DNA of 64,000 bases, taken from Streptomyces sp. NA02950 (lineage in GTDB: Bacteria; Actinomycetota; Actinomycetes; Streptomycetales; Streptomycetaceae). The notes below the pieces were generated by a model that was not told the DNA's origin, did no database searches, and saw only the letters and a program-made list of their open reading frames with translations. The translations under genes and the position numbers were made by a program. The stretch is taken from NCBI RefSeq assembly GCF_013364155.1, contig NZ_CP054916.1:310001-374000 (forward strand), written 5' to 3'. This document shows positions 43,439 through 51,294 of the stretch, piece by piece (the first letter of the stretch is position 1; each line of letters starts with the position of its first letter).

Positions 43439-43442
43439 CTAA
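43439..43442. repeat. Left target-site duplication CTAA of the composite element
   Basis: CTAA directly abuts the IS1380-type left end at 43443 and matches the four bases that follow the right end. Confidence 0.7.
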
Positions 43443-43458
43443 CCTCGATCGTTCATGA

Positions 43459-43484
43459 GGGCCCGTCAGCTTGCTGACGGGCCC
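43459..43484. terminator. Strong hairpin inside the IS end
   Basis: GGGCCCGTCAGC-TT-GCTGACGGGCCC is a perfect 12-bp inverted repeat followed by TTTGT on the plus strand. Weaker versions sit at the same place in the related ends near 46675 and 50773. In plus orientation it would stop transcription entering the element from outside. Confidence 0.6.
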
Positions 43485-43614
43485 TTTGTGGTGGGTGTTG
43501 GTCGGGGTTTTCGGGGTCTGGGCAGGCTGATGGCCCGGTTGTCGCGCCGGGTGTGCGCCGGGTTCCACTGTTCCGGTGGGGTGGCGCTGCTTGCAGGGAC
43601 GAGGAAAACACTAG

Positions 43615-45275
43615 CCTCGCGCTTTCGTGAAGCGGGCTGTCCGACAGGCGGTCAGGAAAGCAGAAAGTGCCCCTGACCAGCAAGAATGAGGATTGTCGAG
43701 GTCCTTGTTCCTGCCACCGCCGGAGGCACTTCCCAGGTGAAGCACTCTATCGGGTCCTACCCCCGTGTCCGTGTCCAGGATGACGGCCGCCAGGTCGTCT
43801 CCCAGGCCGGGTCGGTCCTGCTCGTCGAAACGGTCCGCAAGACCGGTCTCGACCAGGCCATATCCCAGGCTCTGGTTCCGTGGCGCAAACCTCGGGCCGT
43901 TCACGATCCCGGCAAGGCCCTCCTGGACGTCGCCCTGGCGGTCGCACTGGGCGGGGACTGCCTCGCGGACGTGGCGATGCTGCGGTGCGAGCCAGCCGTC
44001 TTCGGCCCGGTCGCCTCCGACCCGACCATCTCCCGCCTGATCGACACCCTCGCCGCCTCCGGCGACAAAGCCCTGCATGCCATCCGGTCCGCACGGTCTG
44101 AAGTCCGCCATCGTGCCTGGTCGTTGGCCGGCAAGAACGCCCCGGACGCCGACGGCCAGGTCGTCATCGATCTCGACGGCGTCCTCGTGATCGCCCACTC
44201 TGACAAGGAGGACGCAGCAGCGACCTGGAAGAAGACCTACGGCCATCACCCGCTGACAGCTTTCGTCGACCACGGACCGGGCGGAACCGGTGAGCCGGTC
44301 GCCGCCCTCCTCCGACCGGGAAACGCAGGCTCGAACACCGCTGCCGACCACATCGCCACCGCCCAACTGGCCCTCGCCCAGCTGCCGAAGAAGTACCGGC
44401 GAGGGCGGCAGACGCTGATCCGCACGGACTCCGCCGGCGGAACCCACGACTTCGTGTCCTGGCTCGCGAAACGAGGCCGATGGCTGTCCTACTCGGTCGG
44501 CATGGTGATCACCGAGGCGATCCACGAACACGTACTGCAGATCCCAGCCTCAGCCTGGACCCCGGCCGTCAAGACCGATGGCGAGGCCCGTGACGGGGCC
44601 TGGGTCGCCGAGCTCACCGGCAAGCTCCTGGACGGCTGGCCCGAAGGCATGCGACTGATCGTCCGAAAGGAACGACCACATCCCGGCGCCCAGTTGAGGA
44701 TCACGGACGCGGACGGCATGCGGATCACGTGCTTCGCGACCAACACCCCAAACCGGCCGATCGCTGAGCTCGAGCTCCGTCACCGGCTGCGGGCCAGGGC
44801 CGAGGACCGGATCCGAGCCGCCCGGTCCACCGGCCTGCGCAACCTGCCCCTTCACACAACAGCCCAGAACAAGGTCTGGCTGGAGATCGTCCAGATTGCC
44901 CTCGACCTGCTGGCCTGGATGCCCATGCTCGCCCTCACCGGCAAGGCCCGGCTCTGGGAACCCCGCCGACTGCGGTTCCGCCTGTTCTCCGCAGCCGCCC
45001 AACTCGTCACCACCGGCCGCCGCAGAATCCTCCGCCTCGCCCAGCACTGGCCCTGGACCAGGGAGATCACTGCCGCCCTCGAACGACTCGCGATCCTGCC
45101 CACCCCCGGCTGACCAGCAACTCTCCACCGTCCCGACGACAACATCACCCGCCCCGGGCAGTGGAACCCGGCGCCCACCCGACGCGACAACCGGGCCGCT
45201 GGCCTGCCCACCATCAGCTCCGGAAACAGAAAGGGTCCACCGACTCCGTCGACGGACCCCCGCGAAAGATCGAGG
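43615..45275 (+). mobile_element. Intact IS1380-family insertion sequence, copy 1
   Basis: A 1661-bp element with imperfect terminal inverted repeats: CCTCGCGCTTTCG at the left and the complement of CCTCGATCTTTCG at the right. It is bounded by a CTAG direct repeat (43611-43614 and 45276-45279). It carries one transposase gene. A 12-bp imperfect hairpin (45233-45259) sits just inside the right end and could terminate transposase transcription. It inserted into an older IS remnant of the same family. Confidence 0.93.
43686..45113 (+). CDS. IS1380-family transposase, copy 1
   Basis: A full-length 475-aa DDE transposase. Recognisable family features are DPTISRLIDTLA near residue 117, the first-aspartate region DLDGVLVIAHSDKEDA followed by TWKKTYGHHPL, the second-aspartate region TLIRTDSAGGTHDF, and the RARAEDRIRAAR segment holding the catalytic glutamate. 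It would catalyse cut-and-paste movement of the surrounding element. The ATG at 43686 matches the start of the related copy at 48249. No frameshift is seen, so it may be active. Confidence 0.95.
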   Translation: MRIVEVLVPATAGGTSQVKHSIGSYPRVRVQDDGRQVVSQAGSVLLVETVRKTGLDQAISQALVPWRKPRAVHDPGKALLDVALAVALGGDCLADVAMLRCEPAVFGPVASDPTISRLIDTLAASGDKALHAIRSARSEVRHRAWSLAGKNAPDADGQVVIDLDGVLVIAHSDKEDAAATWKKTYGHHPLTAFVDHGPGGTGEPVAALLRPGNAGSNTAADHIATAQLALAQLPKKYRRGRQTLIRTDSAGGTHDFVSWLAKRGRWLSYSVGMVITEAIHEHVLQIPASAWTPAVKTDGEARDGAWVAELTGKLLDGWPEGMRLIVRKERPHPGAQLRITDADGMRITCFATNTPNRPIAELELRHRLRARAEDRIRAARSTGLRNLPLHTTAQNKVWLEIVQIALDLLAWMPMLALTGKARLWEPRRLRFRLFSAAAQLVTTGRRRILRLAQHWPWTREITAALERLAILPTPG

Positions 45276-45490
45276 CTAGTCAGCCGGTGGTCGGCAGGGC
45301 GTGGAGTCGTTCCAAGGCTTCGGTGATCACAGCTGTCCAGGGCCAGGACGGCTTGGGGGATGGCGTCGATGATGGTCATGCCGACCGAGTACGACAGCCA
45401 CCTGCCGCGCTGGGCGAGCCAGGCGACGAACTCGTGCGTGCCGTCGCCGGAGTCGGTACGGATCAACGTCTGCCGGACGCGCCGCAACCA

Positions 45491-46213: not shown

Positions 46214-46659
46214 GTGGTGGCTGAGCCGATTACTAAGTTCGACCCGAGTGGCAAGGCCACGATCCTCAGCTACAACGTTCCGGAGCCGACCTCCTACAGC
46301 GGGCGCAACATCATCGCCTTGGATGTGGACAACCCCAAGGAGTGGTTCCGCGACTCCGCGTTCAAGGCTCCAGAGCGCACACCGGCCCAAGCACTGCGCG
46401 AGCTGACCGCTACGGATGTGGCCACGATGCTTCGCACCGGAGACCTCAAGACCTTCCCCGGGATCAGGAACCCAGCCGCCACCCACGCCGGGCTATTTGC
46501 CCCGCACAGCGCGGTCGCAGGCAGCGCGGGCGCGCTGGACACGGCCACCACCAGCGTTCTGGCCCAGGCTCTGCGCAAGGCCACGGTCGAACCGGATTTG
46601 ACGCCTCTGACCGAAACAGCAGGCGTGCCGTCCCCCACTCCGCCTCCGTCTCCGCCTAG
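46214..46659 (+). pseudogene. Unknown passenger gene, 5' part, split by IS insertion
   Basis: This encodes the first 148 codons of a protein I do not recognise (VAEPITKFDPSGKATILSYN...). The GTG start follows AGAGGGA. The frame runs into the IS at 46660. When 46660-48324 (the IS plus one CTAG copy) is removed, codon 149 forms across the junction and the frame continues without a break into 48326 and on to the stop at 49789, giving 636 aa. The N-terminal 150 residues end in a Pro/Ser-rich linker, which is where the IS landed. A truncated product ending in IS-derived residues could still be made. Confidence 0.85.
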
Positions 46660-48320
46660 CCTCGATCGTTCATGAGGGGTCGTCAGTTTGCTGGCGGACT
46701 CTTTGTGGTGGGGGTTTCGGCGTCTGGGCAGGCTGACGGCCCGGTTGTCGCGTCGGGTGGGCGCCGGGTTCCACGGCTCCGGTCGGGGGTGGTGCTGCTC
46801 GCAGGGACGGGAACGTGCCGGTCAGCCGGGGTTCGGGAGGACGCGGAGCCGGTCCAGGGCATCGCTGATCACGTCGGCCCAGGGCCAGTGCCTGGCCAGG
46901 CGGAGGTAGCGGCGGCGGCCGGTGGTGATGAGCTGCGCGGCGGCGGAGAACAGCCGAAGCCGAAGGCGGCGGGGCTCCCACAGGCGGGCCTTGCCGGTGA
47001 GAGCGAGCAGGGGCATCCAGGCCAGCAGGTCCAGGGCGATCTGGACGATCTCCAGCCAGATCTGGTTCTGTGCGGCGCCGTGGTGGGGAAGGTTGCGCAG
47101 GCCGGTGGCGCGGGCGGCGCGGATGCGGTCCTCAGCACGGGCACGCTGGCGGTGGCGCAGTTCAAGGGCGGCGATCGCCTCGCCCGCTGTGTTGGTGGCA
47201 AAGCAGGTCAACCGCATGCCGTCGGCGTCGGTGAAGCGCAACTGGGCACCGGGGTGCGGCCGTTCCTTCCGCACGATCAGCCGCAGCCCGTTGGGCCAGC
47301 CGGTCAGGCAGTCGCCGCCGAGTTCGGCAACCCAGGCGCCGTCGCGGATGTCGCCGTCGGGTTCGACGGCCGGTGTCCAGGCCGAGGCCGGGACCTTCAG
47401 GACGGCCTGGTGGATGGCGTCGGTGATGGTCATGCCGACCGAGTACGACAGCCACCTTCCGCGCCGGGCGAGCCAGGCGACGAACTCGTGGGTGCCTCCG
47501 CCGGAGTCGGTACGGATCAGCGTCTGCCGGCCGCGCCGGAGCCGTTTCGGCAACTGGGCCAGGGCCAGTCTGGTGGCCTCGATGTGGTCGGCGGCGGTGT
47601 TGGAGCCCGCGTTGCCGGGCCGCAGCAGGCCCACGACCGGCTCGCCGGACCCGCTGCGGCCGTGGTCGACGAATCCCATCAGCGGGTGGTGGCCGAACGT
47701 CTTCTTCCAGGTCGCGGCTGCGTCCTGCTTCTCGGAGTGGGCCAGGACGAGGACGCCGTCGATGTCCACGATCACCTGCCCGCCCGTGTCCGGCGCTGCT
47801 TCACCGGCCAACCGCCATACGCGTTCGCGTACTTCAGCACGGGCGGTGCGCAGTGCTGCCAGGACCCGCTGTCCGCCCGACGCCAGCGTGTTGATCAGCC
47901 GGGAGACCGTGGGGTCGGAGGCTACCGGCCCGAACACGGCCGGCTCAGCCCGCAGCAAGCCCACGTCGGCCAGGCAGTCCCCGCCGAGTGCCACCGCGAG
48001 CGCGACATCCAGCAGGATCTTGCCCGGATCGTGCACCGCCCGGGCCTTCCGCCACGGCTCAAGCGCCGCCGATATCGCCGTGTCGAGACCGGACTTGCGG
48101 ATCGTCTCGACCAGCAGCACGGCCCCGGCCTGCGAGACGACCCCACGACCGCCGCCCTCGACGCGGACACGCGGGTAGGACCCGATACGCTTCTTCACCT
48201 GGAAAGTGCCTCCGGCGGTGGCGGGAACAAGGACCTCAGCAATCCTCATTCTCGCTGGTCAGAGGCACTTTCTGCTTTCTTGATCACCAGTCGGACAGCC
48301 CGCCTCGTGAAAGCGCGAGG
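46660..48320 (-). mobile_element. Intact IS1380-family insertion sequence, copy 2
   Basis: A 1661-bp element, the same length as copy 1 but inverted. It is bounded by CTAG (46656-46659 and 48321-48324), with ends CCTCGATCGTTCATGAG and the complement of CCTCGCGCTTTCACGAG. It disrupts the passenger gene. The clean target duplication and intact transposase point to a recent insertion. Confidence 0.94.
46822..48249 (-). CDS. IS1380-family transposase, copy 2
   Basis: A 475-aa transposase closely related to, but clearly not identical with, copy 1; many substitutions are scattered along the length. It has the same landmarks: DPTVSRLINTLAS, DIDGVLVLAHSEKQDA, TLIRTDSGGGTHEF and RARAEDRIRAAR. The start is ATG 48249, about 70 nt inside the element end. 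It reads against the passenger gene. The damaged left and right arms look closer to this copy than to copy 1, judging by the shared CCTCGATCGTTCATGAG terminus. Confidence 0.95.
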   Translation of the reverse strand: MRIAEVLVPATAGGTFQVKKRIGSYPRVRVEGGGRGVVSQAGAVLLVETIRKSGLDTAISAALEPWRKARAVHDPGKILLDVALAVALGGDCLADVGLLRAEPAVFGPVASDPTVSRLINTLASGGQRVLAALRTARAEVRERVWRLAGEAAPDTGGQVIVDIDGVLVLAHSEKQDAAATWKKTFGHHPLMGFVDHGRSGSGEPVVGLLRPGNAGSNTAADHIEATRLALAQLPKRLRRGRQTLIRTDSGGGTHEFVAWLARRGRWLSYSVGMTITDAIHQAVLKVPASAWTPAVEPDGDIRDGAWVAELGGDCLTGWPNGLRLIVRKERPHPGAQLRFTDADGMRLTCFATNTAGEAIAALELRHRQRARAEDRIRAARATGLRNLPHHGAAQNQIWLEIVQIALDLLAWMPLLALTGKARLWEPRRLRLRLFSAAAQLITTGRRRYLRLARHWPWADVISDALDRLRVLPNPG

Positions 48321-48324
48321 CTAG

Positions 48325-49789
48325 TGGTCCATCCCTTGAAAGCGTCCAGGACACCCCGGGCGGCCCCACCAGCGACGTGACGCACCTGGCCCGGGCCGTG
48401 CGCGGCTCGATCCTCTCGCAGGTCGCCCTGGCCGACCACCGGGTGCGGCCGCAGATCACCGATCTGGACATCGCGCATGTCACGGAGATGCTGCAGACGG
48501 GCAAACGGCTGAGTGTGCACCGCACCCTGTGGGGGGAGTACACGCACACCTTCCTCCCAGACCCCTTCGGGGCGCCTGCCGCCGATGGGGTGCTGGCCGA
48601 AGGGAAACCGCAGATCTCGCTGGTGGAGACCTACCGGCTGTCCACCTTCCTTGGCCAGTACGGTGCCGGCCGGACTCTGAAGACCTTCACCCTGCTGCCG
48701 GGTGAGAAGACCACCATCAGTATCAAGACGTTCCGCAAGACCGAGACCGACAGCAAGTCGGCTTCCAGCGTGCTCGATTCGTTCACCAAGGAAAGTGCCG
48801 ACGACTTCGAAAGCACCGTCCAGCACGAGAACTCTGACAAACAGGCACAGCAGAAAAGCCTTGAGTGGCACGTCGAGGCAGAAGCCTCCGGCTCCTGGGG
48901 ATTCGCCAGTGCGAAGGTCAGCGGCGGCGTCAAAGGCTCCTCCGCGTCCCAGCGCGAGCAGTTCGCCAAGAACATGAGCAACGCGGTCAACAAGCACGCG
49001 TCCAAGGCATCAGCGAAGCGGGACGTGCAGATCAACACCTCCCAAGAGGTGAAGACGCAAAGCGGCGAGGAAACCTCGATCACCCGTCAGCTTGAGAACA
49101 TCAACGTCGGACGGACCCTGAACTTCGTCTTCCGCCAGATGAACCAGGAACACATCACTATCCTGCACCTGGTCGACGTGCGCGTCGCCTTCTGGAACGG
49201 CTACGGCGAATCGGTAGACGAGGTTCCGCTGTCCGGGCTCAACGACCTGCTGGACACCTACGTCAAGCCCGAGAAGAAGAGCGACCTGCGAAAGATGGTC
49301 CTTGACCAGCTGTCCACGATCTTCGACTACGAGGACAAGCTGGTCGAACCGTCCATGGTGGAAACACGTCAGATCGGCCCGACCGGCTCAACCGACACCT
49401 ACCTGCGATGGCGGAAGAAGAAGTCGACCTACCGCGACGAGACCGGAAACGAGATCACCGTTCCCGGCATCATCCTGAACGTGGACAAGACGGTCATGCG
49501 GACCGAGGGCGTCGTCGTGGACGCACTCCTGGGCCAAGGGAACGCCCTCGACGAATACTCGCAAGGGCTGCAACTCAGCGCCGTTCGCGAACGCGCACTC
49601 GACAACGACCGCGAGGCTTTGGGACAGAAACTCGTCACCGACAACGAGAACGCCAAAGCCAAGATTTACAAGGACATCTTCACCCCTTCCGTCGCCCTGC
49701 CCGGCAAGATCTCGGTCTCCGCCTCGGACACCGGAGTGACCGTCGCCAGCACCGCCAGCGCCGATGGCGCCCACGCCGTCGGCGGGTAG
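48325..49789 (+). pseudogene. Unknown passenger gene, 3' part (488 codons)
   Basis: The continuation of the gene begun at 46214. A GTG at 48377 could restart translation (470 aa), but it has no good ribosome site and lies inside the reconstructed frame. The protein has a beta-rich stretch (KTFTLLPGEKTTISIKTF), then about 160 residues rich in Ser, Thr, Lys and Glu with a Gly/Ser-rich hairpin-like segment (ASGSWGFASAKVSGGVKG), then a conserved-looking LNFVFRQMNQEHITIL block and a soluble C-terminus. No signal peptide or long membrane helix is visible. The polar Ser/Thr-rich middle with alternating residues loosely recalls aerolysin-type pore-forming proteins, but I see no diagnostic motif. The next gene starts 6 nt after the stop. 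Confidence 0.8.
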
Positions 49790-49795
49790 CGGCCC

Positions 49796-50728
49796 ATGAA
49801 CACCCCCACGCCCGACGTGGCATTGGCACCCGCCGGAGCAGCTCTCCGGCCCGCCTCCCTCGCCCCGCGGAACCAAGTCCTGTCACCCGGACCGCCCACC
49901 GGTTTTGCGCCAGTCCGGCTGAGAAATATGGACCGCGCCCAGAAGCTGGCCGCGGGCTCGGACGACTGCGAGGCCCTGGCGCTCCTGTTCTCGGATCCAG
50001 GGATCATCGACGACGGCACCGTACCGGGCCGGCTCAGGGAGATCCTGGCCATCACAGAACACTTCGCCATTCCCGGTCTCCAGACACGGATCCGCTTTCA
50101 CGACCGGGGATTCAAGGGTCAGCCCACCCCGGGAGGGCCAGGCTTCCGCGACCCGTGGCCCAAGAGCGACAATCAGGTCGGCCACTTCCTCTCGGCGGCC
50201 GGCATGAATTTTCAGCCCGACGTGGTCCGCCGTGAGGTCGGAGGAGTAGGCCCCACCGTGCGATCGCTACTCCGGGCTCCAGACAACATGAGCGACCGGG
50301 AGGTGGTGCAGCGGCTGGTTATTGGCCATGAGAAGGCGCCAGACCCCGCGGTGGACGCACCCTCGATGGCCGCCAGCGCGCTGGGGGGACTCTCGGGTGG
50401 TAGCTCCCTCGGAGCTATCGTGGGGGCCGCGGCCGGGGCGGCCATGAGCGTGGTGAGCGGGTTCCGCGTCCAGTTCGAGGCGGTCACACCATCCGATATG
50501 AGTGCCTGGGCGGCCGCTCTGTCGGCACTGGGGAACAATTCGGTGATCAACCTCGCAGCCGCCGAGCCGCACCTACGCAAGATTCCCATCAACTACAGTT
50601 TCTCGGGCAACAGCATTCAAGACCTCCGGCTCAGCCTGTGCGGCTGGTATCTCGGACAAGCCATCGCCAATCGCTTCGCCTCGCGGGAGGACGTGGCCAA
50701 GTGGGTCCGGATCAATCTCCACGCTTAG
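49796..50728 (+). CDS. Unknown 310-aa protein, partner of the split passenger gene
   Basis: The ATG lies 6 nt after the stop of the preceding gene, so the two were surely one operon. The N-terminal 40 residues are Ala/Pro-rich and probably unstructured. Residues 100-135 contain FHDRGFKG and DPWPKSDNQVGHFLSAA, which look like a conserved core with possible catalytic His and Asp residues. Residues 191-223 form a Gly/Ala-rich apolar segment (GGLSGGSSLGAIVGAAAGAA) that resembles membrane-inserting glycine-zipper sequences. The C-terminus is a mixed soluble domain. I cannot place it in a family. Expression may be polar-silenced by the upstream IS unless it has its own promoter. Confidence 0.8.
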   Translation: MNTPTPDVALAPAGAALRPASLAPRNQVLSPGPPTGFAPVRLRNMDRAQKLAAGSDDCEALALLFSDPGIIDDGTVPGRLREILAITEHFAIPGLQTRIRFHDRGFKGQPTPGGPGFRDPWPKSDNQVGHFLSAAGMNFQPDVVRREVGGVGPTVRSLLRAPDNMSDREVVQRLVIGHEKAPDPAVDAPSMAASALGGLSGGSSLGAIVGAAAGAAMSVVSGFRVQFEAVTPSDMSAWAAALSALGNNSVINLAAAEPHLRKIPINYSFSGNSIQDLRLSLCGWYLGQAIANRFASREDVAKWVRINLHA

Positions 50729-50760
50729 AGATCCCGACGGAAGATCACCTGCTCCACCAG

Positions 50761-51294
50761 CCTCGATCGTTCATGAGTCCCCGGCAGCTTGCTGACGGGG
50801 ACTCTGCGTCGTGGGGTGCGGTCTTTTCGGAGCTGGGGCAGGCTGAGGACCCGGCTGTCGGGCCGGGTGGGCTCCGGGTTCCACGGCTCCGGGGGTGATG
50901 CGGGCGAACACGGCCGGCTCTGCCCGCAGCATCGCGACATCAGCCAGGCAGTCCCCGCCCATGGCCACGGCGAGCGCAACATCCAGCAGGATCTTCCCCG
51001 GGATCGTGCACCGCCCGGGGCTTGCGCCAGGACGCGAGTGCCTGGGACATCGCCGCATCCAGCCCGGTCCTGCGGGCTGTTTCCACCAGCAGACGGCACC
51101 GGCCTGCGAGACCACCCCGCGACCATCGCCCTCGACGCGGACATGCGGGTACGACCCGATACTCTTCTTCACCTGAGGAGCGCAGCTTTCCTGACGACGA
51201 ACAGGATCTTAGACAAGTCCCATCGTTCCAGGTCAGAGACACTCCTCGCTTTTTTGATCACACCCCGGACACTCACACTCGCGAAAGCGCGAGG
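50761..51294 (-). pseudogene. Right-arm IS1380 copy, internally deleted
   Basis: Both termini are present (CCTCGATCGTTCATGAG at 50761, complement of CCTCGCGCTTTCGCGAG ending at 51294), but only about 530 bp remain. The minus strand encodes the transposase N-terminus (KKSIGSYPHVRVEGDG, later DVALAVAMGGDCLADVAML) with frameshifts, then jumps directly to the 3' non-coding end. It cannot make transposase, yet its ends could still be used in trans by the intact copies. Its inner flank (CCAG) does not match the outer CTAA. Confidence 0.85.

Follow-up and report, generated by a model that had tools for sequence, protein, structure and literature searches.

What do two neighbouring genes of Streptomyces sp. 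NA02950 encode when neither has a family name and one of them has been cut in two? Both lie on the plus strand of a 64,000-nucleotide (nt) stretch of the genome (contig NZ_CP054916.1, positions 310,001 to 374,000; hereafter the window, numbered from its first letter): gene A, divided by an insertion sequence (IS), and gene B, immediately behind it. A first-pass annotation, made from the letters alone, had proposed an unrecognised two-gene system with a toxin, defence or competition role. On comparing the locus with its relatives we came, with moderate confidence, to favour a reading in which gene A supplies the constant component of a two-gene system not recognised before, and the second gene is an exchangeable effector, mostly toxin-like where it can be recognised. 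The basis of this reading is observed: the gene A family, the split copy in the window, the downstream position of the partner and, across 11 loci, the swapping of unrelated downstream genes. Because several of the partner genes encode domains already familiar in toxin systems, a two-part weapon is the simplest reading.

Gene A is a once-intact gene interrupted by an insertion sequence

The two pieces of gene A (46214..46659 and 48325..49789, plus strand) are separated by an intact IS1380-family element (46660..48320, minus strand; NCBIfam NF033539, E 7e-98), whose transposase gene lies at 46822-48249 on the minus strand. The ends of the element match at 14 of 18 bases, and a CTAG target duplication flanks it on the left (46656..46659) and on the right (48321..48324). 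The positions of the two pieces agree with the first-pass annotation, and its frame arithmetic for the joined gene is correct (446 + 1465 = 1911 = 3 x 637). The 5′ piece comprises a conserved N-terminal segment and the start of a variable linker; the 3′ piece, seen in the list of open reading frames as a frame of 470 amino acids (aa) from 48377, comprises the main domain, with predicted long beta strands, a Ser/Thr/Lys/Glu-rich middle and an LNFVFRQMNQE block.

The pieces were kept apart in all searches, and the analysis rests on them rather than on a joined protein. By BLASTP, each matched 17 of the 17 intact relatives of ~635 aa that were tested, at opposite ends; in the Streptomyces mirabilis relative P0002, for example, residues 1-146 align with the left piece and residues 144-631 with the right one. 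Intact homologues thus extend across the IS junction, and because both pieces match opposite ends of the same relatives, the sequences identify the split as a simple insertion into a once-intact gene, within a variable Pro-rich linker. The homologues start at the window's second GTG (46217) and not at 46214, so intact gene A was probably 635 aa long, with its true start at 46217. The IS has probably silenced gene A in this strain, gene B remaining intact, and since gene A is interrupted, the locus is probably a decaying copy.

Gene A belongs to a large family that includes Brevibacillus and Bacillus members (1061 proteins at E<=1e-3) and that is sporadic among streptomycetes, being present in 7 of 392 Streptomyces genomes, our own included. 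Searches of Pfam, NCBIfam, PADLOC and PHROGs gave no match to this family, and the PADLOC defence models returned 0 families at E<=1 for both gene A pieces and gene B; neither product falls into a named family, as had been stated from the sequence. Two features of gene A that had been picked out by inspection proved genuine: the conserved-looking block contains six residues (L409, N410, R414, Q415, N417 and Q418) that are invariant across 84 aligned relatives, and the middle of the protein is rich in Ser/Thr (24% in residues 284-400, against 16% overall). Only one fusion occurs among the 120 relatives listed, to a PG_binding_1 domain (P0026). The first 45 residues of gene A and of P0002 contain no twin arginine and no hydrophobic stretch by crude hydropathy.

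Two further observations concern the reach of the family. A 642-aa protein of Yasminevirus, a giant amoeba virus (BFVD A0A5K0U6Q4), matches the gene A model (Foldseek E 3.1e-8; 530 columns, 17% identity, TM-score 0.23). In an archaeal relative (L030, 7665-9209), one in-frame TAG separates the N-terminal segment from the main domain, roughly at the position of the Streptomyces IS.

Unrelated genes occupy the slot behind gene A

Eleven gene A loci, a small set, had any downstream information to compare. Nine of them carry a partner gene, of seven unrelated kinds, two of which have significant toxin-type Pfam matches; taken partner by partner, four are significant by sequence (two gene B, one Ntox44, one nuclease), three carry motifs recognised by eye and two are of unrecognised kind. 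On the conjugative Sinorhizobium plasmid pAK76, an Ntox44 gene (Pfam E 7.4e-18) stands 33 nt downstream of a gene A relative that shares 27% identity with P0002 over half its length and matches the A1 profile at E 5e-57. In the archaeal genome G1439, an assignment that a mis-binned contig could also account for, the partner begins after 2 nt and encodes a DNA/RNA non-specific endonuclease (Endonuclea_NS_2, E 8.1e-15) similar to the secretion-system nuclease EssD (E 2.8e-4). In S. longispororuber (G212), the gene for a 314-aa protein begins at a GTG and overlaps the stop of gene A by 4 nt, and Streptomyces NPDC001262 has a member of the same family (adjacent tags ACFY2W_26985/26990). By eye, both show an E...GLMQ/GIMQ pattern, which we take to recall lytic transglycosylases, making them lysozyme-like by motif only; Pfam and PDB profile searches of these partners were negative. 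The partner in G1328 is a HELGH protein by motif, its start uncertain, and those in G1273 (308 aa, 12 nt downstream) and G1322 (a 447-aa frame 133 nt downstream, with low G+C at third codon positions) match no family.

Partners and gene A run in the same direction with spacings of -4 to 33 nt in five loci (the window, G212, G1273, pAK76 and G1439). Upstream, in a comparison of three loci that was not systematic, the genes are not toxin-like: a 69-aa hypothetical protein with TraA, a DUF5667 protein and an FG-GAP protein. Crude hydropathy shows no signal peptide in the six partners checked or in the gene A sequences. Nor was an immunity gene recognised next to any of the payloads read, though no systematic search for one was made.

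Several observations weigh against an exchangeable two-gene system. In G261, the gene A relative has no partner and is followed only by a LuxR-type gene, 277 nt away; in G260, it is a broken remnant. By length, the contigs of two relatives of the partner genes (P0124 and P0199) were matched to no gene A relative among the matches listed, and the partners share no common leader or adaptor that could be shown. The first-pass annotation had treated A and B as a coupled pair, which holds in part: in S. mirabilis, P0002 and the gene B relative P0123 seem to share a 17851-nt contig, on which their adjacency was not read. The coupling is not obligate, however: other gene A relatives have other partners, and none of 11 further genomes with the gene B domain (several of them incomplete metagenome-assembled genomes) gave a gene A match.

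Other genes near these loci deserve mention. Beta-propeller-type genes lie near two of them, one with hemopexin repeats (L018, 4718-6148; Pfam E 1.1e-14) and one with FG-GAP repeats (L019, 6758-8215; E 5.5e-36), and a third possible propeller gene (L022, 11828-13024) was recognised by eye and has no Pfam match. Convergent with the archaeal nuclease gene and after it lies a gene (L030, 10437-11270) whose 277-aa product has a CGGM motif and, judged by eye, may be a papain-like peptidase.

Gene B carries a domain that elsewhere is a payload of eCIS_core proteins

Gene B (49796..50728, plus strand; 310 aa) starts 6 nt past the gene A stop, confirming the gap given earlier, and is predicted to consist of an Ala/Pro-rich, low-confidence leader (about residues 1-37) and an all-helical domain (predicted local distance difference test score 87). 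The 310-aa start is supported by the relative P0122 and less closely by P0124. The protein database has later starts in its entries P0121 (this locus, 266 aa) and P0123 (S. mirabilis, 268 aa); the 266-aa call omits the Ala/Pro-rich leader (49796-49927) that P0122 conserves.

We found 75 proteins with a gene B-type domain. In 61 aligned sequences, the core motif noted at first inspection is conserved, with D119, P120, S124, Q127, H130 and F131 invariant; H178, E179, D183 and D276 are invariant as well and, together with H130, form a His/Glu/Asp set that looks like a hydrolase site. A fold search with the domain gave no match. The proposed glycine zipper, by contrast, is not a family feature: glycine-zipper models matched at most 2 of the 61 members, with a best E of 0.012, and gene B itself scored 10.2 bits where the cut-off is 25.

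In 6 of 11 genome loci, and in 8 of the 61 aligned sequences, this domain forms the C-terminal payload of an eCIS_core (DUF4157) protein; it also ends a few RHS-type proteins. Proteins that begin with DUF4157 and end in a toxin domain are described in PMC8213781 as a pattern of toxins associated with extracellular contractile injection systems (eCIS), and DUF4157 is treated in PMC11297309 as a marker of such toxins. Some eCIS_core copies of the domain adjoin an AAA ATPase, a tape-measure protein of the contractile injection system (CIS) or a further eCIS_core protein. In locus L006, the genes for a CIS tape-measure protein (E 4.5e-135), an AAA ATPase and a second eCIS_core protein run in the same direction as the one with the gene B-type domain and form a series with it; in L002, a gene B-type gene follows an AAA ATPase. 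Three genes before the latter is an eCIS_core protein (L002, 2404-6114) with a C-terminal deaminase-toxin match (E 4e-4) below the Pfam cut-off.

By sequence, gene B thus falls within a domain family of eCIS payloads; in the window it is no more than a candidate eCIS effector. Its domain has no Pfam name, and a position behind gene A would be a second context for it. The window's gene B has no eCIS_core (PF13699) match in Pfam at E<=1. A Phage_sheath_1 search of its own genome was also negative, with a control that matched 3 of 14 genomes and an uncertain sensitivity for a Streptomyces system; genome searches with eCIS_core and Phage_T4_gp19 were uninformative, as their controls gave no match. 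The toxin or competition role first proposed for the locus has gained independent evidence: the domain of gene B recurs in eCIS_core and RHS-type proteins, and toxin-domain genes occupy the same slot elsewhere.

A possible role for gene A

The predicted model of the intact relative P0002 has long beta strands, and gene A residues 321-350 show an amphipathic beta pattern. Among 25 listed structural rows spanning the beta part, 21 are entries for aerolysin, CPE, parasporin, Tpp/Bin, Cry35/Cry78, Mpp75 or monalysin, and 2 further rows are lectins; the resemblance in fold to beta-pore-forming toxins does not rise above noise. On so weak a likeness, any membership of gene A in a family of pore-forming toxins is putative, as is a pore.

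We infer from these patterns the joint action of both products, the toxicity of the second, carriage or pore formation by gene A and the identity of any target. In the most likely split of roles, gene A would encode a soluble protein that has long beta strands as well as a Gly/Ser-rich, amphipathic segment. This protein would bind and carry the effector or, once released from the cell, open a membrane for it; the downstream gene would supply the damaging enzyme. Gene A could instead act as a second toxin beside its partner, but we prefer carriage or translocation, since the first gene stays the same while the second is replaced by unrelated ones, although no adaptor shared by the partners was found. 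Release by lysis or some other route is assumed, since no signal peptide was seen by crude hydropathy. A bolder proposal, which we regard as tentative and rather doubtful, is that gene A represents a new kind of carrier: a stand-alone soluble delivery protein that needs neither a contractile machine nor fusion, would work with any effector behind it (nuclease, Ntox44, wall hydrolase, peptidase or eCIS-type payload) and has spread through Bacteria and Archaea and, judging by a single Foldseek match, to a giant amoeba virus.

Alternative explanations

The same structural features would suit a gene A that is itself a beta-pore-forming toxin, followed in its operon by an independent second effector with no carriage between them. 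The long beta strands, the S/T-rich middle, the amphipathic pattern, the toxin entries and 2 lectins among the listed rows and the Brevibacillus and Bacillus members all speak for it; we consider it unlikely. Both genes might instead encode cell-wall or cell-death factors that act inside the producer, in programmed lysis or development, rather than weapons. That would fit the lack of visible signal peptides in the gene A sequences and six partners, the resemblance by eye of the GLMQ partners to wall hydrolases, the PG_binding_1 fusion and literature accounts in which Streptomyces contractile systems act in cell death. Ntox44 and Endonuclea_NS_2 partners are ill-suited to a conserved developmental role, however, as are the sporadic presence in Streptomyces and the archaeal host of one pair (archaea have no murein), and we rate this explanation as quite improbable.

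Chance offers another account, in which the downstream genes are mere neighbours on toxin-rich mobile islands: the loci are few, and IS elements, a plasmid location and lower G+C accompany the pair. Against this stand the tight same-direction spacing in five loci and the upstream genes that are not toxin-like at the three loci viewed, and we give it very little credence. Slimmer still are the prospects that a CIS takes gene B and the other partners as its cargo, with gene A as accessory cargo, chaperone or baseplate protein. The gene B domain is indeed a recurring eCIS_core payload with CIS genes adjoining some copies, but the gene A profile, which does match elsewhere, found nothing in the 11 genomes with other gene B-type domains, no CIS gene was recognised at gene A loci among the few neighbours put through Pfam, and the genome itself lacks a sheath match, within the limits of that control.

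Surroundings of the gene pair

IS1380 copies or fragments lie on both sides of the pair, those upstream at 43443 and onward. Upstream is a nest of IS1380 pieces (43439-45489) containing an intact transposase gene (43686-45113, plus strand), an internal fragment (45344-45489) and an end fragment; immediately 3′ of gene B is a truncated IS1380-family copy (50757..51294). The G+C content around the pair is lower than in the left part of the window. The suggestion that a transposon carries the pair was nevertheless not borne out: despite the flanking copies and fragments, we found around it no unit with one pair of ends and target duplications.

Comparison with known systems

If the pairing is true, an unnamed family of more than 1000 members would become a marker for unknown effectors, encoded by the gene behind gene A, and would represent a candidate module for protein delivery that is much less elaborate than contractile machines or giant RHS proteins; the gene B domain, an eCIS payload, would likewise gain its second context.

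The likeness to eCIS-associated toxins lies in the gene B domain, the C-terminal payload of eCIS_core proteins; unlike them, gene B has no eCIS_core and stands alone behind gene A, with no contractile gene recognised nearby. Polymorphic toxin systems also combine a constant part with unrelated, exchangeable toxin domains, Ntox44 being listed among these in PMC3482391, and the few loci compared here show that arrangement; here, however, the constant part has its own gene upstream, from a family that has no name, the payload is unfused in the loci read, and the usual adjoining immunity gene was not recognised, though no systematic search for it was made. Binary (AB) toxins, which have a translocating B component, resemble our locus in its pairing of neighbouring genes, one for a candidate membrane-active protein and the other for a candidate enzyme, whereas neither gene A piece has a Pfam match to such a family, the second gene is exchangeable and the membrane activity of gene A is putative. 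Umbrella toxin particles of Streptomyces, described in PMC11062931 as having a TAT signal, ALF repeats and variable toxins, resemble our system in genus, in their variable toxins and in the beta-propeller-type genes near some gene A loci; gene A differs in having neither a TAT-type N-terminus nor a Pfam domain. As that account (PMC11062931) illustrates, Streptomyces still had carriers of polymorphic toxins to be discovered.
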